Shown piece by piece: positions 8,971-39,682 of a stretch of DNA of 64,000 nucleotides (within the stretch, counting starts at the first letter, position 1; every line of letters begins with the position of its first letter). The stretch lies in NCBI RefSeq assembly GCF_029664245.1, contig NZ_JANAIE010000003.1, forward strand, positions 124,001-188,000, in the 5' to 3' direction. The notes below the pieces were generated by a model. That model saw only the letters and a list, made by a program, of their open reading frames with translations, was not told the DNA's origin and searched no databases. This DNA comes from Profundicola chukchiensis (GTDB taxonomy: Bacteria; Bacteroidota; Bacteroidia; Flavobacteriales; Weeksellaceae). The translations under genes and the position numbers were made by a program.

Positions 8971-10458
8971 TTAATCTAAGTGTGGATTGTTTTGAATCTC
9001 AGACTGAGGAATATCCAATGTTAAGCGAGGATCATTATATTGGAATGACTCACCAGCGAAGAATAAGTGGTTAGCACCACGTGTTCTTGTTTCTTGGTTA
9101 CGCTTCATAGACCAATAAGTTTTTCCTTCACCCCATAACTCAATTCTAGTTTGAAGTCTAATCTCATCTAATAAAGCTTGTCCTGATAATGCATCAATAT
9201 AAGAAGCATCTTCAACTCTGATTTCCATCAAGTCTTTTAATGCTTGACGCGCACCAGCTTCACCTCCTTCAGCACCTGATTTTGCAGCTGTTTCAGCATA
9301 CAATAAGTACATCTCCTCAATTCTCATATAGATGTAGTCAGTAACAACACTTCTTTGACCACCTGATACACGATCAGGAGCATAGAATTTACCAGTTGGT
9401 TTCTTTTGACCTAAACCAACGAATTGTTTCTTTCTAACATCGTCTGATGAAATTTGAGCATATAAATCATTATCGATTGTCTTAGGATCTCCTGCCCAAG
9501 CATAAGAGTAAGTGTACTGGTCTACTTGACCCCACCAAGAAACTAGGTCTAATCCCATTTCTAAAGTAACGTCTTGACCCCACATCCAAGCTGGTGAATT
9601 AACATCATTAAATCCACCGCCAGAAGCAGTTGCAGCATCATAAGCTAAATCTTCAGCTGATAATAATGGGAAGTTACCTTCATCCATAACTGCTTTAGTT
9701 ACAGCAGCAGCTTCAGCATTACGACCCACAGCAGCATAAGCATAACCTAAAATACCTCTAGCAACATCTTTGTTGATGTCTCTTTTGTTTGATCTTGGAC
9801 CATTCTCTAATAAGTCAACCGCTAATTCTAAATCAGCAATAATTTGGTTATAAACCTCACCTGTTGTACTTAATGGAAGCGCATCTAAATTTGCTTCTAA
9901 CATTAATGGAACAGCTGGACTACTTAAATCACCATTGTCATTAACATAAAGGTGCATTAAGTTTAAGTAAGAATACCCTCTAATTGCTAATCCTTGACCT
10001 AGTTTAGCTCTTGATTCTCCGTCCTCTGGAAGAGCATTTAAATCATATCCACCAATTAGTGTGTTAGCTCCTCTAATGATTCTATAATAGTATCTCCAAG
10101 GCATGTAACTAGAGTTTGAAGTATAATCTACTGTTGCAGTATAGTTAGCAATGTAGCTATACCATCCATAAGTATTACCTGCCAATACCATATCACTTCC
10201 TAACATATCATAATAGATATCCCAGCTTTTTTGACCGAAGTCATCATGTCTAAGGTTTGTCCCCCCAGACCCAACAGTATACATTGTATTATACAATCCT
10301 ACCAAGTATCCATCTAAAACCTCAGGATTACTTTGTCCCGCATTATTAATATCCTCCGAAGATAATTGGTTCGATGGTCTTGTTTCTAAATAATCTTCAC
10401 TACAAGACACAAGTCCCGCTGCGAAAATAAATAAAGAAATTTTTATTAAATATTTCAT
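8971..10458 (-). CDS. SusD/RagB-family outer membrane lipoprotein
   Basis: A 495-aa surface lipoprotein with lipobox LVSC near residue 19 and the family start CSEDYLETRPSNQLS. Conserved SusD stretches include GQGLAIRGYSYLNLMHLY, the TPR-like part GILGYAYAAVGRNAEAA and the C-terminal RIELWGEGKTYWSMKR. SusD proteins bind substrate at the cell surface and form the lid of the partner SusC channel. The gene lies 11 nt after the SusC gene at 10470-13682, so the two form a pair. No degradative enzyme is adjacent, so the substrate cannot be named. Confidence 0.93.
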   Translation of the reverse strand: MKYLIKISLFIFAAGLVSCSEDYLETRPSNQLSSEDINNAGQSNPEVLDGYLVGLYNTMYTVGSGGTNLRHDDFGQKSWDIYYDMLGSDMVLAGNTYGWYSYIANYTATVDYTSNSSYMPWRYYYRIIRGANTLIGGYDLNALPEDGESRAKLGQGLAIRGYSYLNLMHLYVNDNGDLSSPAVPLMLEANLDALPLSTTGEVYNQIIADLELAVDLLENGPRSNKRDINKDVARGILGYAYAAVGRNAEAAAVTKAVMDEGNFPLLSAEDLAYDAATASGGGFNDVNSPAWMWGQDVTLEMGLDLVSWWGQVDQYTYSYAWAGDPKTIDNDLYAQISSDDVRKKQFVGLGQKKPTGKFYAPDRVSGGQRSVVTDYIYMRIEEMYLLYAETAAKSGAEGGEAGARQALKDLMEIRVEDASYIDALSGQALLDEIRLQTRIELWGEGKTYWSMKRNQETRTRGANHLFFAGESFQYNDPRLTLDIPQSEIQNNPHLD

Positions 10459-10469
10459 TTTTCTAATTT

Positions 10470-13400
10470 TTAAAGTTTAACTCTTAGACCAAACGTAATG
10501 TTAGACAATGGAGAGTATTGATATGTATCAGATCCACCTGTAAAACTTGCAGAAGGATTGAATCCATCTCTCTCAGAGAATAACCAAAGGTTATCACCTT
10601 GTACATACATTCCTAATTCAGCCAATCCCATTCCTGAGATCATATCAGTTGGGAAATTATACCCAATTCTCACGTTATTTAAAGCAACATAGTCAGATTT
10701 TGTTAAGAATCTAGTTGACGCAGAAGTAAAGTTAGTATCTCCTGTAATGTTGTTTGATAATCTTGGTACGTTAGTAACGTCACCTGGTTGTTGCCATCTT
10801 TGCTCGATGTCTTGGTGCCAGTTGTTTCCTCCAAGTTCAGTGTTTCTCATTAATCCTGCATAAGCACTATCATAAGAATAACCACCAAAGCTATATAAGA
10901 ATTGCGCACTTAGTTCGAAATTCTTGAATCCAGTAGCCAAGTTAAATGCACCACGTACATCTGGAATAGCAGTTTTGTCAATAAATTTCTGAGTTGCATC
11001 AGTATAAACTGTAGTAGTTGTCATTGCAACATTAGCAGAAGAATTATTAGACATATAGTCATACATAGAAGAAATTCTAACATCACCTTCATCAAACTGA
11101 CCGTTTCCGTTTACGTCATCATAGTACATATTCCACATAGCAGCACCAGTTTGAGTATCAACTCCAGCCCACTCACGTAAGTAGTAGTCATATAAAGAAC
11201 GTCCAGCAGCTCTACCGTAAGAACCAGCAATATCAATAAGTTTTCTTTCTCCTGTTCCAAGCTCAATTGGCATTTCTAACAACTCGTTGTGTAACAACTC
11301 ACCATTAAATCCAACATTTAAGAAGAAGTTCTCTTTTCTTACAACATCAGCGTTTACGTTAAATTCGAAACCAGCGTTAAATAATTCACCATCATTCATG
11401 TTGAAGATTGCACCACCAGAAGATAAGTGTAGTCTTGATTCAAATAATAAATCTGTAGAATTCTTTCTATAGTAATCTAAATCGATATTAACTCGATCAA
11501 AGATTCTCATTTCAGCACCTACTTGGAACATTTTTGCACTCTCCCAAGTTAAGTCAGGGTTACCAAATGTAGATTGCGCGAATCCATACTCACCGTCCAT
11601 TGCACTTGAGTATAAGTCAGCCCAAGGATATAATCCTAAACCTCTTTGCTCACCTGTTGTACCATAAGAAGTTTTTAACTTCAATCTGTTGAATACATTT
11701 TGATTTAACATGAAGTCTTCTTTAGACAACATCCAAGCTAAACCAACAGAACCGAATTCACCCCATTTTTCATTTCTAAATCTTGAAGAACCATCAGCTC
11801 TCATTGTTGCAGTAACAAAATATTTTCTAGCAAAGTCATAGCTTAACTGACCAAAGTAACTTTCAATTGTATAGTCATTTGTATAAGATGCCATAGAACC
11901 GAATTGGTTAGCATTGTTCCACTCTGGTAAATCAGGAATTACTAAACCAGATCTATATCCTAAGATATACTTATCTTCTAAAGCATTGTTCTCGTGACCT
12001 GCTAAAATCTCTAAGTTATGGTTAGAACCAAATGTTTTAGCATATCTCAACATTTCTAACATATTGTAAGAAAGTTGTTCGTTGTTTACTTTATAGATAC
12101 TACCTCCTGAAGTTGCAGCCGAACCATAGTATGGGTTGCTTAAGTCATTGTAGTTATCATTCAAGAATTGAGAACCAAATCTTGTTTCTAAAGTTAAACC
12201 GTCATATAATTTAAAGATAAAAGATGCACTTGTATTAATGTCGTGTCTTTTAGCGTTGTTTAAGTTATAGTGAGCATCTGCAATCGCGTTAGTGTTAGCA
12301 CCGAATCCACGTCCTGCACCTGCACCAAATCCGTAATCATACTCATATCCACCAAAGATTGGCTCAGGAATTTTATTTCCATCAGCATCTCTTGTAAATA
12401 ATGGGTAAATAGAAGGAATGTTATCAACGAACCAGAATACACTTCCTGAATCCTCAGACTGTCCGTTCATATTCGTATCAGAGAATGAATATGATAAATT
12501 CACATTTGCATCCATCCAAGGAGCAACTTCGTGAGAAACATTCAATCTTGTTGATAAACGATCGAAGTCAGATTTAACTGAGTATCCTTTTTCATCTAAG
12601 TAAGAGAATGAAGAGTAGAAAGTAGTTTTATCTGAACCACCACTAAATCTAATTGTATTCTCTGTTCTGATTCCTGGGCTAAATGCATAATCTTCCCAAT
12701 TTTCTGGCGTATACTTTCTGTTAACACCACTGTTAAATCTTCCTGTTGCAGGATCGATTAAGTTAGCACCAGCAGCATCCCACATATTATACATTGGGTC
12801 AATACCAAAGTCACCACCAAATAAGTTAGCATTAGCAAATGCAGCAGGATCTGCCTCACCATTTAATGCTCCATAGTTTTTCAAACCTTCCCATCCAAGC
12901 TCCATATAGCGCTCTGGATTCTTAATTGTATTATATCTAGGTAATAAGCTCATATTGAAACCAACTTTACTATCGAAAGTAATTTCTGATTTACCTTTCT
13001 TACCTTTCTTTGTATTAATCACAATAACACCGTTCGCACCACGTGCACCATAAATAGCAGTTGCAGTCGCGTCTTTCAAAATAACAGTGTTTTCAATATC
13101 GGCAGGGTTAATTGAGTTCAAGTAACCATCGTGTGGAATACCATCTACTACATATAATGGAGCTGTACTACCATTTACCGAACCAATACCACGAATTCTA
13201 ACTGATGAAGAACTACCTGGCTGTCCAGATCCAGTTACAACAACAACACCCGCAGACTCCCCTGCTAATGCTTTAGAAATGTCTGATACACTTTTCTTTT
13301 CAATTTGTTTAGAATCTATCACATCTGCAGTACCTGTATAGGCATCGTCAGTTGTTGATGAGTATCCTAAAGTAATCACATCAGATAAACCGATGGCTGC

Positions 13401-29444: not shown

Positions 29445-32090
29445 TTAAAATCGAAAGTTGTATTTAAAAATAATATATCTTTCGTTTAAGCTTTGTGAAT
29501 TTTGTTCTTGGTAATAATCGCTAACAAAGATTTGCTCAAAATGCTTGTTGTTAGTTAAATTTCTAGCTTCTATTGCGAAATCCCAGTTCTTATTTTTCGG
29601 ACGAAAGATAATATCGAAATCCAGGAAGTAGAATGGATTATTATCACCAAGCATCGGGTTAAAATATTCAAATGTAAGTGATGAAAACCAAAGCTTTTTA
29701 GGCTTAAAAATAAGTTTAGCTTCATTTTGAATTGAACTGTTGCTATGATAAGATTTATTAGGCAACTCCGTTCTAAAATATTGAAATTGGAATTTATTTT
29801 GAAAATTTAAAGGCATACTAAAGGCTGTATGCACAGAAAATTCAGCCAGTCCGGAATGTGCTGAATTATTCCTTAAATCTGAATTATTGACGAAATTAAA
29901 ATAGTCGAGATAGGCATAATTCCCTCCAAATCGAATAGTAGATTCAAGAAAACTCACATATTTTTCTATCAACAAGTTTGTGTTAAGATTCGTAATCGTT
30001 TTGGGTAAAATAATATACTTCGTTTGCGTGAAATCTTGTGAAATTAAATTTTCGCTAAATCTATTATTTTTGATTTTTTCGAAATTTAGAAAAAGCGTGA
30101 ATTGAAATTGTTGGTATAAATCATAATGATTAAATCCTATTTTTGAACTAAACTTGTCTTGATAGGCAAAATTCGTTTCGTTTTTTCTCAAACTTCTGTA
30201 GGAAGTCAATATAAAATTTTCGTATAAATTAGAAATAGCTTGTCTACGTTGATTAAACTGAGATTGTATATATATTTTTGAATCTGGACTCACATCATAT
30301 GAGAAACTGACTTCTGGGTTTATGATGATTTTGTTCATCAAAGAATCCATTTCCTGTTGCTGAAATTGAATTATATCATTCTTTAACTTTAAGTTTGATT
30401 TAAACTTCCATTTATTTTTGTTCCATAAATAACTTGCATACACTTGAGATTGCACTTGACTGAGCTTTATTTGATTTTCCAATGCTAATGGTGATTCAAT
30501 TTCAAGATGTGATCTTAGAAAATCTTTTTGATATTTTCCGATAAAACCTAAAGAATATTTATGTAATTTCTTATTAACTCCAAGAAATGATAAATTTACA
30601 AGACCAATATTTCTGTCTGTTTTAGCAAATTGATGTGCATCTTCGAAATTTATATTTTCGTTGATATCATGATTTAAATCTTGTGACATATCAAAATACT
30701 GAGGTGATGAGTTTTGGGCAAAGAGCAAGATCATTTGCAGCACCTGACGTAGGTTTAATTTATGCGTATAATTCAACTGGTGTTTATGAAAATACGTATT
30801 TGATTGCAAGTCAGTTGATATATTTGAATTCAGAAAATTCTTTTTCAAAAGATTTGAAGTATTGATTTTTTCATCAATCCATTTACTTTCCCATTCCCAC
30901 ATAGATTTCTCGGATTGAGACCATGTGATTTTTGAGTCTCCATAAAATGTTTGGGGTTTTTTCTGAATTATTTCATTGGCGTAAGTAGAGAAATCTTCTT
31001 GGTTCTCAAAATTATATTTAACCAAACTTGTATTATGCAGATCTAATTTATCTTGCAAATAATTAAAGTTAATTCTGGCCGTGGTGGCATTATTTAATTT
31101 AAAAACATCATTCACGCTTGCGAAAAAAAGCTGATTTCTTGTGGCTCTATCTTGACTTAGTCTACTTGTAAAAACTTTTTCGGGGATTGGCTTATTAGAA
31201 ATAAAATTCGAAACTTCTTGTTGTTCTCTGGAACTTACAAAAGAAAAGTAATTCCAAGGTGTATTATTTTTCCCGGTATTATTATAAGAAAGACTATTGA
31301 AATTCTTATTTCGATGATTTAATAAAATTGTATTTATTCTGGCCTCGTATCTGTCTTCTATTCCATAACCAAGATTTGCATTGCCTGACAGATCATGAAT
31401 ACCTTTTTTTAATTTTAAATTAAGTGCAACTGCTTGGCTGTCTTCAATACCATCCAATAACTTATTTTCACTCCAATTTTCTACGGCTTGAACTTGATCT
31501 ATGATTCCGACAGAAATATTCTTGCTACCCGTAACATAGTTATAGCCAAATAAATCATCACCATCCAAAAGCAGCTTACTGATTTCTCTACCTTTATATT
31601 TAATAGTCCCATTTTCTGCAACATCTACACCTGGAAGTTTTTTTAATAAATCTTCAACTACCCTTTCAGAACCATCCTTATAGCTATCTGCATGATAAGA
31701 TGTTGTGTCGTTTTTTACACGTATAGATTTTGGTTTTGCCTTAACGACAATATCTTGCAAATTAATTAAGTCCTTTCTCAATTCGAAATTAATGATTTGC
31801 GAAGTGTTTTGATGATTCAATGCTTGTATTTCGCTAGCAAATCCGTGCTTTGAAATCATTAAACTGTATTCACCTAAGGTTAAATTCTCTAAGGATATAG
31901 AATATTCGCCTTGTTTGTTTGTGGTATCAAATAATAGAACTTTATTTTCATCATCTATAACTTCCACAATGGCAGAACTAATACCTATTTGGGTTTCGAA
32001 GTCAATGACAATTCCTTCTAAATTCTGCGCGAAGAATGTAGAAATAATTCCCCCATAAAGAAAAACGACGAAATATAGTATTTTCTTCAC
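29445..32090 (-). CDS. TonB-receptor-like outer membrane beta-barrel protein at the end of the GLPGLI array
   Basis: An 881-aa protein with signal peptide (to FFAQ, about residue 22) and a carboxypeptidase-regulatory-like domain (LEGIVIDFETQIGISSAIVE). A plug-like domain follows (ERVVEDLLKKLPGVDVAENG, GREISKLLLDGDDLFGYNY), then a beta-barrel of about 600 residues ending in FKYNFRF. In many flavobacteria such proteins neighbour GLPGLI genes. No TonB box is obvious. It begins 9 nt after the GLPGLI gene at 32100 and is the last gene of the array, so it may be the outer-membrane partner of the whole set (inference). Confidence 0.85.
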   Translation of the reverse strand: MKKILYFVVFLYGGIISTFFAQNLEGIVIDFETQIGISSAIVEVIDDENKVLLFDTTNKQGEYSISLENLTLGEYSLMISKHGFASEIQALNHQNTSQIINFELRKDLINLQDIVVKAKPKSIRVKNDTTSYHADSYKDGSERVVEDLLKKLPGVDVAENGTIKYKGREISKLLLDGDDLFGYNYVTGSKNISVGIIDQVQAVENWSENKLLDGIEDSQAVALNLKLKKGIHDLSGNANLGYGIEDRYEARINTILLNHRNKNFNSLSYNNTGKNNTPWNYFSFVSSREQQEVSNFISNKPIPEKVFTSRLSQDRATRNQLFFASVNDVFKLNNATTARINFNYLQDKLDLHNTSLVKYNFENQEDFSTYANEIIQKKPQTFYGDSKITWSQSEKSMWEWESKWIDEKINTSNLLKKNFLNSNISTDLQSNTYFHKHQLNYTHKLNLRQVLQMILLFAQNSSPQYFDMSQDLNHDINENINFEDAHQFAKTDRNIGLVNLSFLGVNKKLHKYSLGFIGKYQKDFLRSHLEIESPLALENQIKLSQVQSQVYASYLWNKNKWKFKSNLKLKNDIIQFQQQEMDSLMNKIIINPEVSFSYDVSPDSKIYIQSQFNQRRQAISNLYENFILTSYRSLRKNETNFAYQDKFSSKIGFNHYDLYQQFQFTLFLNFEKIKNNRFSENLISQDFTQTKYIILPKTITNLNTNLLIEKYVSFLESTIRFGGNYAYLDYFNFVNNSDLRNNSAHSGLAEFSVHTAFSMPLNFQNKFQFQYFRTELPNKSYHSNSSIQNEAKLIFKPKKLWFSSLTFEYFNPMLGDNNPFYFLDFDIIFRPKNKNWDFAIEARNLTNNKHFEQIFVSDYYQEQNSQSLNERYIIFKYNFRF

Positions 32091-32099
32091 AAGACCTTC

Positions 32100-32837
32100 T
32101 TAATAAACTATTCCATTACCCGTTTGTAGCGATGGATATATAATCTCCGCCTGATTTATTTTATAGTAAGAATCGAAGGAATGATTTTCTTTTTTAGATT
32201 TTTGGGATTTAATATAATTATCATGAACACGAATAAACCTATCTTGAAAATCTGAAAACTCCATAAATTCTAAGGATAAATAATCTTCTGCTTCTTGCCT
32301 GAATTCGTTTTCATCTAATTCTGAAATAGATTGAAGACTATATTCAATAAAATCATCATCGGATTTAACATGTATAATTAACCCTGGCAATCCTTTGAAC
32401 TTCCAAGGTCCTTGGCTAATTTTGATTTCGTTGCTGAAACACGCTGTATATTTCCTACCCCTGAATTCTGTTGTTGCAATTTGACAAAGATGCTGATTTA
32501 CACTGTCCATTTTCTGTGTTAGATTCCATTTCAAGTCAGGTTCATCTACCACATTCAAATATTTTCCAAACAAAATCTCTTGATAATAATGTGTGTTTGC
32601 GATGCTATAAAACTTGCGTGGTCGAGAAGATTGAACAATAGAAACTTCCTCCATTGAATTCGAATCAGCATAACCAGTATATTCCCACTGACTATAATCT
32701 TCAGATATTTTTAAATCAAAATAAGAAATGAATGTGTTTGGAAAAACATTCATTTCATATGAAACCTTAATTTCTTGCGCTTCTAAAACAATTTGATATC
32801 CAAAAGCTAGCAAAATAAGATATTTTATTTTTTTCAT
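32100..32837 (-). CDS. GLPGLI family protein, single domain (array unit 5)
   Basis: A 245-aa exported protein with a signal peptide of about 20 residues and the exact family motif GLPGLI at 149-154, preceded by the typical TEFRGRKY and GPWKFK stretches (TIGR01200). The function of the family is unknown. It lies 3 nt after the frameshifted small peptide gene and 9 nt before the outer membrane protein gene, so all three form the last unit of the array. The length is that of a normal single-domain member, making it the least altered GLPGLI protein here. Confidence 0.92.
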   Translation of the reverse strand: MKKIKYLILLAFGYQIVLEAQEIKVSYEMNVFPNTFISYFDLKISEDYSQWEYTGYADSNSMEEVSIVQSSRPRKFYSIANTHYYQEILFGKYLNVVDEPDLKWNLTQKMDSVNQHLCQIATTEFRGRKYTACFSNEIKISQGPWKFKGLPGLIIHVKSDDDFIEYSLQSISELDENEFRQEAEDYLSLEFMEFSDFQDRFIRVHDNYIKSQKSKKENHSFDSYYKINQAEIIYPSLQTGNGIVY

Positions 32838-32840
32838 TAT

Positions 32841-33102
32841 TTAATCAAGATCATAATTTCCAGAATCTACTTCAAAATCATATAATTTGTTATTAGCTGC
32901 TACTGATGCTGCATCACACGCTTCTCTTCTGGTAGTTGCACATTCTGTTGCTGTTGCTGATTCACCTGTTTCGGGATTTACTACAGTTCTTGTGCAACAT
33001 TCACTTAAAATTATTTCTTCATTTATAATTTTAACGTCATTCCCTGCAAAAGACAATACACCAAAGCTAATAAAAGCCGTTGTAAAAAAGTAAATTTTTC
33101 AT
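32841..33102 (-). pseudogene. Small exported Cys peptide with frameshift in its signal peptide (array unit 5)
   Basis: From ATG at 33102 the frame reads MKNLLFYNGFY and stops. Removing one T from the T6 run (33084-33089) restores MKNLLFTTAFISFGVLSFAG, a perfect signal peptide like those of its paralogues, fused to an 86-aa peptide. The mature part has Cys35, Cys36, Cys54 and Cys62 (restored numbering) and the motif ECATTRREACDAA, matching DCKTARKKA and SCARKKA in the sister peptides. Without the change only an internal TTG start at 33056 is available, giving 71 aa and no signal. It may be a pseudogene, a phase-variable gene or a sequencing error. Confidence 0.65.
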
Positions 33103-33320: not shown

Positions 33321-34646
33321 TTACCATTGAATAGTTTTTAAGAACTCTGCTAATTGAACCTCATTGAGAATTTCAGTCCGTTTATTCTTAATAGGAATGT
33401 CAGGTTTAAAAACTTCGTTTTTTAATTTAACATTGTTTGCTATTACATAGTCTATTTGATCAGAAGTTTTATGTCTTGTAATACTTTTAAGGATAATTCC
33501 GGGAAGACCATATAATTTATCGGGACCATTGCTAATTTTTATCATATTTGTAAACCATGCTTCTACAGAATACTCCTGCATATCTATTGTTGCTTTTTGT
33601 ATTTTAAAGCCCAGTAAATCATCATATCTCTCATGTATTTCCCAATTAATTGGTTGAAAATTATCTTTTATAATTATCCGTTTCCCCTCTATTTCCATTT
33701 CATTTAAATAAACACTATCCAACAAATTCTTGTAGAATGTTCCTGAACTTTTTATTCTGCCAAACTCCGTCAAACTTTGATTATTATTAATCCGCTCTAA
33801 ATACTTGTAATTGGATTCGCTAAAATTGCAACTCAACATAAAGTTAGAATTAAGTGTTTTTTCTTTATGATACTTTTCATTTTCTTTATATGTAAATTCA
33901 GAATAAACATCGTACACAATTTCAATATAGGGTTCAATATTCAAATCATAAATTTCAATTTCATCAGAATGATAAAATACAGGGTTTTTAAGATCCACCT
34001 GATTATTCCAAAATCTTAACTTAGAACGCCCTAGCAATTCGTTCCATGACATAGCATTTGCAATATCCAAGTTTGAGGTGATTGATTTTTGAGTGTTAAA
34101 ATCTATGCTTGTTGCCACGAACTCTATTCTTTTATTTTTTTCTACTACACTTAATATTAGCCCAGGTAATCCACTAAACTTAAAAGGTCCATCCTTGGAT
34201 TCAATTTCTGGACAATAGAATACTTCATATTCTCTTCCTCTAAATTCAGTAATAGCTTTCTTGCATAAATAGCCCAATATATACTTACTCTCATTGATTT
34301 TTTTCCATACAAAACTATCGATGTCATCAACTTGTATTTTATTTTGCAGATTTATAAAATGGGCTTCTGAAAAAATTTTATTTTTATTAAAATCTTTAAA
34401 AATCTCAAATACATAGTCAATAGTATCACCTACGATTTGACTAGCGTTATTTATGAACAAAGTATTTTTATCTAGGATTTTGTCGTTAATTAAAAAAATT
34501 GATTCCTTGGAGGTTGAATATAACTCTGTTTTAATCGGTTTTTCAATTAATGATCTAGTGTCGTTTAAATCATATTTGACATGAATGACATCTTGAGCAT
34601 ATAATTTAGATAGAAGAAATAGTATTAATATAAAAGAATACTTCAT
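33321..34646 (-). CDS. Tandem double-domain GLPGLI protein (array unit 4)
   Basis: A 441-aa protein when started at the ATG at 34646, giving signal peptide MKYSFILILFLLSKLYAQ; the longest frame adds nine non-signal residues. Two GLPGLI domains lie in tandem: TEFRGREYEVFYCPEI then GLPGLI at 159-164, and a second with EAWFTNMIKISNGPDKLYG then GLPGII at 380-385. The normal family length is about half this. The second domain carries the altered motif. A strong hairpin separates it from the small peptide gene upstream. It shares the tandem arrangement with the unit 2 protein, so these two are probably recent paralogues. Confidence 0.88.
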   Translation of the reverse strand: MKYSFILILFLLSKLYAQDVIHVKYDLNDTRSLIEKPIKTELYSTSKESIFLINDKILDKNTLFINNASQIVGDTIDYVFEIFKDFNKNKIFSEAHFINLQNKIQVDDIDSFVWKKINESKYILGYLCKKAITEFRGREYEVFYCPEIESKDGPFKFSGLPGLILSVVEKNKRIEFVATSIDFNTQKSITSNLDIANAMSWNELLGRSKLRFWNNQVDLKNPVFYHSDEIEIYDLNIEPYIEIVYDVYSEFTYKENEKYHKEKTLNSNFMLSCNFSESNYKYLERINNNQSLTEFGRIKSSGTFYKNLLDSVYLNEMEIEGKRIIIKDNFQPINWEIHERYDDLLGFKIQKATIDMQEYSVEAWFTNMIKISNGPDKLYGLPGIILKSITRHKTSDQIDYVIANNVKLKNEVFKPDIPIKNKRTEILNEVQLAEFLKTIQW

Positions 34647-34696: not shown

Positions 34697-34993
34697 TTAA
34701 GTAAATGATGAACTTGGAGGTTGGGGGTCTGTTGGGGCTGGCTGCAATGCTTCTTGTGCTTGTTGATGCGCTTTTTTTCGAGCCGTTTTACAATCACCAG
34801 CCATAGAACAAAAAGTACCATGAGTTGCATATACACAGTATTCACAAGGAGGTAATTCCACACTACTTGCAATTTTAATAACCTCGACTACCTCAGTTTC
34901 GAGCTTTATTGAATTTGTTTCTAAATTCCCCATGGAAGCAAAAGCAAATGTTCCTATGAGCATAAACGCTAGAGTAAAAAATAAATTTTTCAT
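34697..34993 (-). CDS. Small exported Cys peptide (array unit 4)
   Basis: A 98-aa peptide with signal peptide MKNLFFTLAFMLIGTFAFAS. The mature part has four cysteines (Cys50, Cys53, Cys62, Cys68), the motif DCKTARKKA (67-75) and a Pro/Gln/Ser-rich tail. The signal peptide is nearly identical to those of the other array peptides, whereas the mature part is different. I know no family for it. It is first in its unit, just after leader repeat copy B, and precedes a double GLPGLI protein, which may be its partner. Confidence 0.75.
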   Translation of the reverse strand: MKNLFFTLAFMLIGTFAFASMGNLETNSIKLETEVVEVIKIASSVELPPCEYCVYATHGTFCSMAGDCKTARKKAHQQAQEALQPAPTDPQPPSSSFT

Positions 34994-35222: not shown

Positions 35223-35786
35223 TTACTTCGAATCCAAAACTTGCTGGATTTGATCTAAATAATATTTTTCATCTTTTAAATACGTGGAAGAAATTAGTAA
35301 ATTATTGTCTTTGGCAAAAAAAAGTATTAAAGAAAGTCCATAATCTTTAATTTCTTTAGAAATATTTTCCACAAACGAAATATATTTCTTTTTAAACCTT
35401 TTTGAGTGCTTATTGGATATATTAAATATAGGACCTTCATAACCTGCTTCTTTCAGCCTATACCGAATTCTATTAAATTCACTGGTATTATTTTCATCTT
35501 GTGCCGTTATCAAATAAAAATCAATCTTACTCTTATTTCTTGTCACCAAATCAAGTACTTTTGGCAAAGTTTCTACACAAGGCTTGCACCAGGCTGCATA
35601 TGTATAAACCAATTTATATTCAGAATTTCCCACATTCAATAGCGAATCAAAATCATCATTATCAATTAAATACACATTATAATTCTCAATATCTGCAACC
35701 TCTACATCATTGAACCTTATAACATCAAGTTGTTGACTTTGCGCTTTTAAACTAAATAAGATTAAGAAAAAAAATATAATTCTCAT
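35223..35786 (-). CDS. Thioredoxin-like exported protein (array unit 3)
   Basis: A 187-aa protein with signal peptide MRIIFFFLILFSLKAQSQ and a thioredoxin fold with active site WCKPC (Cys67, Cys70) in YAAWCKPCVETLPKVLDLV. This is the TlpA-like architecture of periplasmic disulfide reductases. It lies 15 nt after an unknown lipoprotein in the one array unit that has no GLPGLI gene. Because the neighbouring exported peptides have two to four cysteines, a role in forming or reducing their disulfides is a reasonable guess, not shown. Confidence 0.8.
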   Translation of the reverse strand: MRIIFFFLILFSLKAQSQQLDVIRFNDVEVADIENYNVYLIDNDDFDSLLNVGNSEYKLVYTYAAWCKPCVETLPKVLDLVTRNKSKIDFYLITAQDENNTSEFNRIRYRLKEAGYEGPIFNISNKHSKRFKKKYISFVENISKEIKDYGLSLILFFAKDNNLLISSTYLKDEKYYLDQIQQVLDSK

Positions 35787-35801: not shown

Positions 35802-36338
35802 TTATTCCAAGGTAATTCTATATCCACCTTCATTTCCAATTGAAGTGTCCAAAGCATAACTATTTGCTTTTATATTAAAATCTCTATTATACTCTGGTAT
35901 AAACCCCGTATTTAAATCATTTTCTACAATTAAATAAGTTAAATCATTTGGCACGTCTTTAGGAACAGCATTTTGTAATTCTATTTCAAAATAATAACTA
36001 CCATCCACGTCCATCTTTATCTCTACAATTTTATAAGTCTCGTCACTCCCAACATTTTGCTCGTATTCTAATAGTGTTGGAAACCATTTAAAATCACAAA
36101 AACCTAAACCACTCAAACATTTCTTCTTAGGACGATGAATCTGCACTGAAAATATTATAAGATTAATACCATCATTACCATCTTTATTGAACATTGCAGT
36201 ATTAAATAAATCTTCACCTTTTAATTTTATAAACTCAGAAATATTATCTTCATTATAAATAGATGAATTTATTTCATCAGTATCACATGAATAGAAAAAA
36301 GCAATAATACAAAGTAAGAAACATAATTTAATTTTCAT
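35802..36338 (-). CDS. Unknown lipoprotein (array unit 3)
   Basis: A 178-aa lipoprotein: MKIKLCFLLCIIAFFYSC ends in a lipobox at Cys18. The 18 extra upstream residues of the longest frame come from the leader repeat, so ATG at 36338 is chosen. The mature part is acidic and Asn/Asp-rich, with a central KKKCLSGLGFCDF carrying two cysteines seven apart. I recognise no family. It takes the position held by the small Cys peptide in the other units, behind leader repeat copy C, and is followed by a thioredoxin-like gene. Confidence 0.72.
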   Translation of the reverse strand: MKIKLCFLLCIIAFFYSCDTDEINSSIYNEDNISEFIKLKGEDLFNTAMFNKDGNDGINLIIFSVQIHRPKKKCLSGLGFCDFKWFPTLLEYEQNVGSDETYKIVEIKMDVDGSYYFEIELQNAVPKDVPNDLTYLIVENDLNTGFIPEYNRDFNIKANSYALDTSIGNEGGYRITLE

Positions 36339-36505: not shown

Positions 36506-36568
36506 CTTATGCTTTTTAAGCTTTTAATTATATTATTTATCCAAAACGTTTGCTCCTCCTGCACAAAA

Positions 36569-37957
36569 CTACTCACTCGTATCTACACCATAGCCTTGTA
36601 ACAGCCTTCTTCGTTGATAGGCCTCCTCTTGAGCTTGTTGAAATTGATCTAAAGTTACTGATTTTCCTTTTTTAGGAATTTTAATTTGGGAACTAGAAGC
36701 TATATCAATTGAAGTCGCATCATAAAAAGTTATTTCACTTGAGTTTCTATTTAACCTCTTAACCTCCATTCGAAGGATTAATCCAGGCAATCCACCAAAA
36801 AAATCAGGTCCGTTCGAAATAGGAATATCGGGCGTGAACCAAGCGATAATTTTTTGACCTTTGTATTCTATGATTGCTTTCCTAACATTATAGCCTAAAA
36901 ATACATCCTTCTCATCACTGATTTTCCAATTAAATCCAAGTATTTCATCTTCAATCAAATATTTTCTACCCATCAATTCCTCATCCTGCATAAGTTTTCT
37001 ATCAATTAAATCTTTATATATTATACCACGTTGAAAAACATAACCATAACTTGAAAGTCCTTGATTATTGATGATTTTTTCTACATAAAAATAATTTGAC
37101 TCTACAGGTGTCAGAATAAGTTTAAAGTCAGAATCTAAAGATTTATCAATTTCATTTTTTTCGGTAAGTTCAATATAAACTTTGTAATTAACTTCTACTG
37201 CGTAATCAGAGTTCAACTCATATCTTTCTATTTCATTTTCTAATCCACTAATCATAATGTATTGATTACAACATCTTTTTTGCTCTACAATATCCTTTGA
37301 ATATAATATATTCGCTTTGTCTATCAATGTATTCCAAGATAAATACATATTATTTTTAAATGGATTTTCTAAGTTTTTATTATTTTTTTCTATTTTTTTG
37401 GCTTTAATGTGTAATTGGTTTTCGAGATCAATTACCTCTAGAATAAGCCCCTTTAATCCGTGAAACTTCCATGGACCAACCGCTGAATTAAATTTCTCTG
37501 TATAGTAAATCTTATACTTCCTTCCTTTATATAAAATGGAAACTGCACTGCATTCATATCCTAAAATATTTTTCACATCTTGGGGATGCCAAGCTATTAT
37601 CTCGAAATCCTTTAAATCTTGCTTCAAAATAACACCATTCTGATAAACAATTTGTGATTTTGAAAACATCAAATCATCTTGAAAGCTTTTCCATACATAA
37701 TCTGTGAATGGCACCAACTCACTTTCAATTTCATCATTTTCATTAAATTTAAAAGTATTTAGGTCATAAGTCTCTCCATTCATTTCATACAATGAATAAT
37801 TCTCATTAAAATATAAGAAAGCATTTATGGTATCTTTAGATATTTCATAATCCTTTTGGGTATAATGAGCATATGCTATTTTATATTCACTGCTTAAAGT
37901 TTGAGAAAAAGATAAAGTGAAAAATAAAATAAAAATTTGTGATATCACTAATTTCAT
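36569..37957 (-). CDS. Tandem double-domain GLPGLI protein (array unit 2)
   Basis: A 462-aa exported protein with signal peptide MKLVISQIFILFFTLSFSQ. The first domain has LYKGRKYKIYYTEKF and the altered motif GLKGLI at 167-172. The second has EYKGQKIIAWFTPDI and intact GLPGLI at 389-394. The double length and matching domain order make it a paralogue of the unit 4 protein, but here the first domain carries the changed motif. A CC pair (RCCN, about 229-230) lies between the domains. It is 58 nt after the small peptide gene. Confidence 0.88.
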   Translation of the reverse strand: MKLVISQIFILFFTLSFSQTLSSEYKIAYAHYTQKDYEISKDTINAFLYFNENYSLYEMNGETYDLNTFKFNENDEIESELVPFTDYVWKSFQDDLMFSKSQIVYQNGVILKQDLKDFEIIAWHPQDVKNILGYECSAVSILYKGRKYKIYYTEKFNSAVGPWKFHGLKGLILEVIDLENQLHIKAKKIEKNNKNLENPFKNNMYLSWNTLIDKANILYSKDIVEQKRCCNQYIMISGLENEIERYELNSDYAVEVNYKVYIELTEKNEIDKSLDSDFKLILTPVESNYFYVEKIINNQGLSSYGYVFQRGIIYKDLIDRKLMQDEELMGRKYLIEDEILGFNWKISDEKDVFLGYNVRKAIIEYKGQKIIAWFTPDIPISNGPDFFGGLPGLILRMEVKRLNRNSSEITFYDATSIDIASSSQIKIPKKGKSVTLDQFQQAQEEAYQRRRLLQGYGVDTSE

Positions 37958-38015: not shown

Positions 38016-38276
38016 CTAAGTTGGATTTCCAGGTTCTTCTGGAGCAGGTGTCAAATCCTCGAGAGCTTTTTTTCTTGCACAAGACTTTGCTTCATCATAT
38101 GTAGCAGCCTCACAACAATAATTTCGTCCACCGACTTTTACACAATAAATAGTTGGCTTGCTCACTTCTCTTTGTAAAAGAGAAAGGGATTCATGACCTT
38201 TCAAAGGATATCCATTTCCTACAGAACTCAATAATCCACAGCCAAAAAACATTAAACTTAAAAATAAATTTTTCAT
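38016..38276 (-). CDS. Small exported Cys peptide (array unit 2)
   Basis: An 86-aa peptide with signal peptide MKNLFLSLMFFGCGLLSSVG. The mature part has Cys45, Cys54, Cys55 and Cys66, the motif SCARKKA (65-71) and a Pro/Glu-rich end (TPAPEEPGNPT). The Cys spacing and the ARKKA motif match the unit 4 peptide, whose tail is also Pro-rich. No known family is recognised. It follows leader repeat copy D and precedes a double GLPGLI gene. Confidence 0.75.
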   Translation of the reverse strand: MKNLFLSLMFFGCGLLSSVGNGYPLKGHESLSLLQREVSKPTIYCVKVGGRNYCCEAATYDEAKSCARKKALEDLTPAPEEPGNPT

Positions 38277-38479: not shown

Positions 38480-39205
38480 TCACAACACCAGACCTCCCTT
38501 TCTTTCTCTCCTTTCTTTGTTCAATCTTTCAATTTCAGCATAATATTCTGTCAATGAGATTCTATTATTTCCTTTTAATTCTTTTAGCTTTGGATTTTTT
38601 ATGGAAGAAATATCGCTTAATATAACCTCATAATTATTATTAAAGTTAACTTTTACAATTAGGCCATGTAAACCTACTAACCCAAATGGTGCAATATCAG
38701 TAGCATAGCTTTCATCAATCCAAACGACCGTAACGATTTCTTTAGGACCATTTAAACCAGTTTCATAACGCCGATTCACTGCAATTTTACACAATCTACC
38801 ATTTACTATCTCGGTTTTATTTGTCATTTCCCATTCAATTTCATCGAAATCATATTCAATTATCACCCGTCGTCCATTTAAATCTTTCATGTTTTGAGTT
38901 TTCTTCAGTTGATAATCAACAAAAAACTCTCCTTGCGATTTTCTGAACACATCATGTAAACTTATTTTAAATTCTTGGGAGTTATCAATTTTATAAATAG
39001 GATAAAAGTAGCTTGCATTATTTGCATATTTAAGTTCAAATTGGATGCTATCCGTTTCCTGTTTTAAGAACATTCTCATATTACTGCTCTCATCTTCGGA
39101 AGATTCGAATTTATAAGCTTGATAAATAAAGAAATTAGGCTCATTTGTTTGCGCAATTAATGATGTATAGAATAGTAAAATAAAGATTTGAAAAGTTTTA
39201 AACAT
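38480..39205 (-). CDS. Diverged GLPGLI-family protein (array unit 1)
   Basis: A 241-aa protein with signal peptide MFKTFQIFILLFYTSLIAQ. The family motif is altered to GLHGLI (178-183, in FGLVGLHGLIVKV) and the preceding TEFRGRKY-like part is replaced by VNRRYETGLNGPKEI, so the assignment rests on position, length and the remaining motif. It ends in a basic RRERKGG tail. It follows the unit 1 peptide by 35 nt. Together with the damaged peptide upstream, this unit looks the most decayed of the array. Confidence 0.78.
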   Translation of the reverse strand: MFKTFQIFILLFYTSLIAQTNEPNFFIYQAYKFESSEDESSNMRMFLKQETDSIQFELKYANNASYFYPIYKIDNSQEFKISLHDVFRKSQGEFFVDYQLKKTQNMKDLNGRRVIIEYDFDEIEWEMTNKTEIVNGRLCKIAVNRRYETGLNGPKEIVTVVWIDESYATDIAPFGLVGLHGLIVKVNFNNNYEVILSDISSIKNPKLKELKGNNRISLTEYYAEIERLNKERRERKGGLVL

Positions 39206-39240: not shown

Positions 39241-39483
39241 TTAAGCGCGATCGTGGATTTCCGTTAATTCTGCAGAAGATAGACTTGAGTTCTCATGCTC
39301 AAAAAAATTAACCACATTATCAGCATATTCCACACATTCTTGATTTTTATTATTGAACTTAACCTTTTGTAAAGAAGTATAGGAAATATTTTGTGATGAG
39401 TTTAAGAAATCATTTTCTTCTTGAATGCTATTCGTTTTCGAATTTGCAAAAGATAGAATAAAACACCCAAATAATAAAGCCAT
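39241..39483 (-). CDS. Small peptide with truncated signal sequence (array unit 1)
   Basis: An 80-aa reading frame starting at an internal ATG (MALLFGCFILSFANS). Compared with the sister genes the leader lacks about 18 bp: AATAAAATTTATTTTTT joins sequences that elsewhere flank the start codon. Restoring them gives MKNLFFTMALLFGCFILSFA in frame, matching the family signal peptide. The surviving frame lacks the basic n-region, so export is doubtful. The mature part has one Cys (QECVEYADN) and no ARKKA motif. It may be decaying. Confidence 0.6.
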   Translation of the reverse strand: MALLFGCFILSFANSKTNSIQEENDFLNSSQNISYTSLQKVKFNNKNQECVEYADNVVNFFEHENSSLSSAELTEIHDRA

Positions 39484-39600
39484 TGTAAAAAATAAATTTT
39501 ATTGATTAATATGAAACGAAAATAGAAAATAGAAAAACAAATTATTTCCGACTCATTTGCATTTATTTTTTAAAACTTGTCAACAGTTCAATAAAAATAG
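39484..39600 (-). repeat. Array leader/promoter repeat, copy E
   Basis: Nearly identical to copies B-D from TTGATTAATATGAAACG outward (plus-strand reading), but the segment nearest the gene has lost about 18 bp including the ancestral start codon. It begins directly downstream of the atp operon terminator. Confidence 0.87.
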
Positions 39601-39625
39601 CTTTTAGTTACCAAGATACCAAACG

Positions 39626-39657
39626 AAAAAAACCACCAGACAATGTCCAGTGGTTTT
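39626..39657 (-). terminator. Terminator of the ATP synthase operon
   Basis: AAAACCAC/GTGGTTTT stem (39629-39636, 39650-39657) with an inner GAC/GTC pairing and A-run on the minus-strand exit side. It lies 25 nt after the atpG stop and resembles the array terminators. Confidence 0.8.
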
Positions 39658-39682
39658 ATACTTTTTTCAATTTTATGATGGG

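Follow-up and report, generated by a model that had tools for sequence, protein, structure and literature searches.

An 18-bp deletion at the start of a peptide gene in Profundicola chukchiensis, one of several start lesions upstream of GLPGLI genes in the genus

Deletions that arise by slippage between short direct repeats are a general mutation class. Two other kinds of system invite comparison with the locus described here. Phase-variable contingency loci undergo on/off-type changes near the start of genes for secreted protein families, through reversible changes in long tandem repeats or homopolymers. Silent bacteriocin loci with retained immunity combine a small secreted, Cys-bearing peptide with a partner gene that is kept. 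In the locus analysed here, the partner of each small peptide gene belongs to the GLPGLI family (TIGR01200; Porph_ging PF09697, PNGase_F-II_N PF22252), for which we know of no established function. Excerpts of one published study list GLPGLI genes only as regulated genes (PMC9603813).

We analysed a 64,000-nt stretch of the P. chukchiensis genome (contig NZ_JANAIE010000003.1, positions 124,001 to 188,000; hereafter the window), and compared its source genome (G000; 2.6 Mb in 108 contigs) with two genomes of the same genus (G001 and G002). Downstream of atpG, on the minus strand, the window carries five copies of a 193-nt repeat that consists of a terminator hairpin, a promoter-like box and a 5' leader (copies A to E, starting at 33089, 34980, 36325, 38263 and 39473, respectively). 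Four of the five copies stand before a small peptide gene, behind which lies a GLPGLI family gene. These are unit 1 under copy E (39473-39665), unit 2 under copy D (peptide gene at 38016-38276, start intact, with a homologue, L137, in another genus), unit 4 under copy B (peptide gene at 34697-34993, start intact, with a close homologue in G001, L099:3575) and unit 5 under copy A (peptide gene at 32841-33102). The corresponding GLPGLI genes all exceed the TIGR01200 cut-off of 50 bits: unit 1, 38480-39205, open, 59 bits; unit 2, 36569-37957, two domains, 188.7 bits; unit 4, 33321-34646, two domains, 193 bits; and unit 5, 32100-32837, 95.2 bits. By contrast, none of the upstream peptide genes tested exceeded the cut-off of any Pfam or NCBIfam model. 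Unit 3, under copy C, instead encodes a probable lipoprotein (35802-36338; signal with Cys judged by eye; no family match in Pfam and NCBIfam profile searches) and a thioredoxin-like protein (35223-35786; PF00085). Unit 5 ends with a large protein of 881 amino acids (29445-32090), whose matches to a carboxypeptidase-regulatory-like N-terminal domain are below the gathering cut-off, and which is probably an outer-membrane barrel.

The leader includes a box, TAATTTG (39538-39544 in copy E), that, given the general consensus for Bacteroidetes promoters, we take to be a -7 element. Within the genus, these peptide genes and at least one further gene (L007) are preceded by a conserved 5' leader in which two words, TCTATTT or TAGATTTT, come after TTTG; it is found at 39487-39541 of the window and at L006, L007, L009 and L013. 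No comparable peptide gene lies downstream of some leader-DNA matches outside the genus (L010, L011, L012, L014 and L015), which we regarded as chance. Separately, we observed by eye copies of the atpG 3' end inside the peptide-GLPGLI clusters of two species, at ~36530-36560 of the window, upstream of leader copy C, and at ~2410-2450 of L034 in G001, behind the first GLPGLI gene. These copies are marks of tandem duplication breakpoints in both species.

Alignment of copy E to its siblings agrees with the first-pass annotation that 18 bp, including the ATG and first codons of the unit 1 peptide gene, are missing between short ATTTT repeats, in frame with an internal ATG. Copy E reads AATAAAAT directly followed by TTATTTTTTACAATG, and copies D, B and A carry 18 more bases at this point, including ATGAAAAAT. 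Copies D, B and A each contain the word AAAAT twice, at a distance of 18 nt, with the ATG-containing stretch in between; it occurs once in copy E, where the junction (39496-39500, minus strand) falls in ATTTT on the forward strand, which is AAAAT on the coding strand. Since the four other leaders in the window and G001 have an ATG there, copy E lost 18 bp rather than its siblings having gained them. An 18-nt deletion that removes the ATG with 5-nt microhomology (AAAAT) is possible in each of D, B and A, and 5 nt is the maximum microhomology for any 18-nt deletion in each of these three leaders. Among the ~725 possible ATG-removing deletions of 6-40 nt per leader, only two to three lengths reach microhomology of at least 5 nt. 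Thus, the unit 1 lesion has the form of a typical slippage deletion, with a 5-nt direct repeat of which one copy is kept and the stretch between is lost, and a slip or recombination between direct repeats, an event that we infer, would be its simplest cause. The mechanism is that of the general class; here the target is a start codon. Taken singly, such a deletion would be unremarkable; what is unusual is that lesions recur at the start codon in two of the three genomes of the genus.

As it stands, the unit 1 peptide gene (39241-39483, minus strand) begins at the internal ATG 39483 (MALLFGCFILSFA...) and ends at an early TAA (39241-39243); no in-frame start lies upstream of this ATG. Between the end of the promoter-like box and the internal ATG there are 54 nt, as compared with 51 nt for the ATG in units 2, 3 and 4. 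The spacing is only 3 nt longer because the loss of 18 nt almost offsets a start that lies 21 nt further in. According to excerpts of a study of Flavobacterium johnsoniae, adenines at positions -3, -6, -12 and -13 favour initiation (PMC6847099). Units 2, 4 and 5 have A at all four positions; the unit 1 internal ATG has it only at -3. Sec signals are described, in excerpts of PMC9360617, as a positively charged n-region followed by a hydrophobic core and small residues at the cleavage site. Unit 1 departs from this description, with the n-region gone, and the hydrophobic core and SFA kept. Because the start context lacks adenines at -6, -12 and -13, and the positive n-region is absent, translation of unit 1 from the internal ATG is likely weak, and export of the product, which has no lysine n-region, likely poor. 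A product of this kind may still be made from the weaker internal start. Taken together, the poor start, the uncharged signal and the early TAA suggest that the unit 1 peptide is most likely non-functional.

A close homologue of unit 1 in G001 (L037:9644-9913), which lies on another contig, has an intact start with MKKL, and does not begin at the internal ATG. It also extends ~10 residues past the site of the TAA in the window, a stop that was flagged by the search program itself, and a similar tail is still visible in the window DNA behind the TAA. Two more distant homologues (L034 and L134) likewise read past the TAA site; the first of these, at the atpG locus of G001, is a unit 1-like peptide gene with an intact start. 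Relative to an intact homologue, unit 1 therefore has two lesions that would mark a pseudogene: the start deletion and the early TAA.

The first-pass annotation had placed a second lesion in the export signal of unit 5, making two damaged signals among the four peptide genes of the window, and this also holds. In unit 5, the ATG at 33102 meets a TAG after 11 codons, due to one extra T in a T tract. The accompanying statement that the downstream frames stay open applies to the mature frame of unit 5, but not to unit 1, where the TAA ends the frame ~10 codons early. Natural use of the internal ATG in relatives, which had been named as an observation that would count against a lesion, gave a mixed picture: in contrast to the G001 homologue, the atpG-adjacent peptide gene of G002 is left with an internal ATG, but only because its own start is frameshifted. 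The G001 homologues of unit 5 are L037:5587-5856, with its start intact, and a second at C8 (L058); the homologues of units 1 and 5 have an intact ATG and lysine-bearing n-regions. We compared codon positions in place of dN/dS, since dS was saturated or unreliable in most pairs. Between unit 1 and G001, the product of the mature core is identical at 25 of 33 codons, and 18 of 31 differences are at third positions (p 0.004); for unit 5, the figure is 36 of 67 (p 0.0005). These counts show that units 1 and 5 were under protein constraint over the split from G001, which fits recent loss.

When 197 genomes of the family were searched with the homologues of units 1 and 5, strong matches came only from within the genus; the matches outside it were few and weak (E 0.0003-0.008). 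Predicted structures of the unit 5 homologue peptide (three sequences) show a mature part that consists of a beta-hairpin and a helix (pLDDT ~90), a fold that matched nothing in the PDB at E 0.001. In all four leaders, the RNA around the start was weakly structured, with nothing special at any of them.

We surveyed start lesions in the genus by scanning the neighbourhoods of GLPGLI genes and then searching the three genomes with a 24-position leader model. Every signal-bearing small gene found upstream of a GLPGLI gene was counted, for a total of 23 (10 in G000, 8 in G001 and 5 in G002). The start is lost or frame-broken in 8 of the 23, all from G000 and G002. Thus, the lesion that the first-pass annotation described in unit 1 is real, but the description was too narrow, as it is one of eight in the genus. 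In G000, the other three are the unit 5 frameshift, an ATC (L039:12560) and an AAG (L093:4261); in G002, three genes have ATA (L089:8209, L089:9465 and L041:4194, all minus strand) and one has an A-tract frameshift (L036, ATG at 12280), such that a working start is absent in four of five peptide genes. The three ATA genes have open frames of 76-93 codons and the context AAAAC-ATA-AAA, and one of them matches an intact G000 gene at 28 of 54 residues, including the motif GWCEIRIY. In one G001 gene (L100, at C15), the ATG is intact and the mature part is interrupted by two stops; the other 14 genes are open from the ATG. Outside the genus, 74 of 75 matches to the leader model with E up to 0.0001 begin at model position 1 (counted by eye), and all 27 loci checked have an ATG, although these are mostly other protein families and so serve mainly as a check on the method, and less on the peptide family. 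Literature searches covering signal-peptide phase variation, initiation at non-AUG codons and the loss of bacteriocins turned up no account of this pattern.

Two side observations concern the arrangement of these genes. The two tandem ATA genes of G002 (L089:8209 and 9465) have leaders that are 0.92 identical, and mature parts that differ. G000 has a second GLPGLI/peptide cluster at L039 (G000:C43:328000-346000), with four ATG peptide genes, the ATC gene, an ABC-transporter-like pair and an 877-aa barrel-like protein.

An initial tally of 20 peptide genes gave start lesions in 8 of 14 genes from G000 and G002 versus 0 of 6 from G001 (Fisher p 0.042). Addition of three GLPGLI-upstream peptide genes that a strict leader filter had missed (L091 in G002, and L097 and L100 in G001) gave 8 of 15 versus 0 of 8 (p 0.019); both p values are descriptive only, as the groups were chosen after the data had been seen. 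Based on the codons of 12 open genes, start-destroying changes are expected to make up 11-17% of all start-plus-nonsense changes. The probability of the four start substitution events seen against four mature nonsense events is 0.008-0.03, with the two tandem G002 ATA genes counted as one event and the short ATC gene assumed to have one mature stop. The excess of start lesions over the mutational expectation is modest, and no more than suggestive given the small numbers, the fact that some mature lesions are unrecognisable, and the grouping after the fact.

The GLPGLI gene downstream is open for all eight start-lesioned peptide genes. Conversely, in G001, stops or a frameshift disrupt three GLPGLI genes whose neighbouring peptide genes are open (L034 1614-2354, L034 2916-3683 and L037 ~9930-10645). 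Across the three genomes, 6 of 46 GLPGLI matches have an internal stop. The contrast between start lesions and broken partners is not significant (p 0.24, 20 genes). We also modelled the unit 5 GLPGLI protein (mean pLDDT 82.8). The best match was the N-terminal part of PNGF-II, followed by RseB and LolA-type half-barrels; TM-scores by query length were <0.5, which denotes resemblance of fold and no claim of family. RseB and LolA are periplasmic proteins that hold peptides or lipoproteins. Because the model resembles them, GLPGLI proteins may bind a periplasmic ligand, for which the upstream peptide would be an obvious candidate.

We consider it rather probable, though well short of certain, that unit 1 belongs to a tandemly duplicated cassette family and was disabled recently, and that start loss recurs in this family across the genus, in a birth-and-death process of silencing. 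The cassette would consist of a small Sec-exported peptide and a GLPGLI protein. A replication slip between the two AAAAT words would have taken out 18 bp that included the ATG and encoded the lysine-bearing n-region, leaving translation to restart at best from the internal ATG, with a signal that has no positive n-region; the early TAA would add to the disablement. Across the genus, peptide genes would be silenced recurrently by start loss while the partner GLPGLI gene stays open. Cassettes also resemble one another more closely in their leaders than in their mature parts. Decay through the start alone is contradicted by L100 of G001, with its intact ATG and two mature stops. The unit 1 internal ATG may also work well enough to count against silencing. 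The lesions might alternatively be adaptive, with the peptide switched off or kept inside the cell and the GLPGLI partner kept, much as cells that secrete a peptide at a cost or harm to themselves can go silent and stay protected. The open partners of all eight lesioned genes, the lack of a working start in four of the five G002 peptide genes and the mostly open mature frames are consistent with this; the three G001 GLPGLI genes broken beside an open peptide gene do not fit GLPGLI as a needed protection, and the partner table is not significant. We regard adaptive loss as unlikely, albeit the most serious competitor to silencing by birth and death. The same broken G001 genes speak against a simple toxin-immunity pair, and the likeness to silent bacteriocin loci is limited accordingly, in that the partner is broken in three G001 units.

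Translation might instead persist at low peptide amounts, from AUA or AUC as near-cognate codons or from the internal ATG. The long frames and A-rich context of the three G002 ATA genes, the spacing of the unit 1 internal ATG, 3 nt off the usual, and the weakly structured leader RNA are all in keeping with such starts. However, the AAG codon, the two frameshifts and the deletion are not what a common non-AUG start would produce, and four of five other G002 leader-model matches begin at model position 1, making this reading improbable. It seems more doubtful again that the start-less cassettes are a reserve, in which a silent peptide is re-armed by recombination with an intact leader, changing the exported peptides, and the lesions are the off state of family-wide switching. 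Re-arming by recombination is conceivable because the leader (promoter, UTR and signal) is much alike between cassettes: in six G000 genes, namely the AAG gene and five from the second cluster, leaders are 0.83-0.94 identical and mature parts 0.22-0.63. The frameshifts of unit 5 and of G002 resemble changes at contingency loci in being located in homopolymers. By contrast, the tracts are short (T6 and A4), the unit 1 lesion is an 18-bp non-tandem deletion rather than a reversible change in a long repeat, and five of the lesions are start-codon substitutions. Sequencing or assembly errors could be suspected from the 108 contigs of the source genome and from the position of the two frameshifts in short homopolymers, but such errors do not typically take the form of an 18-bp gap with exactly matching microhomology or of several substitutions in start codons, or leave the neighbouring atp genes intact, and we consider this explanation very improbable.

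Seen as silencing by birth and death, with recurrent start loss, the single deletion becomes part of a pattern that can be tested: in one genus, an uncharacterised cassette of flavobacteria, comprising a secreted peptide, a GLPGLI protein and a barrel-like protein, repeatedly loses the start of its peptide gene. If selection drives this loss, the peptide would be costly or context-dependent, which would provide a handle on the function of GLPGLI proteins.
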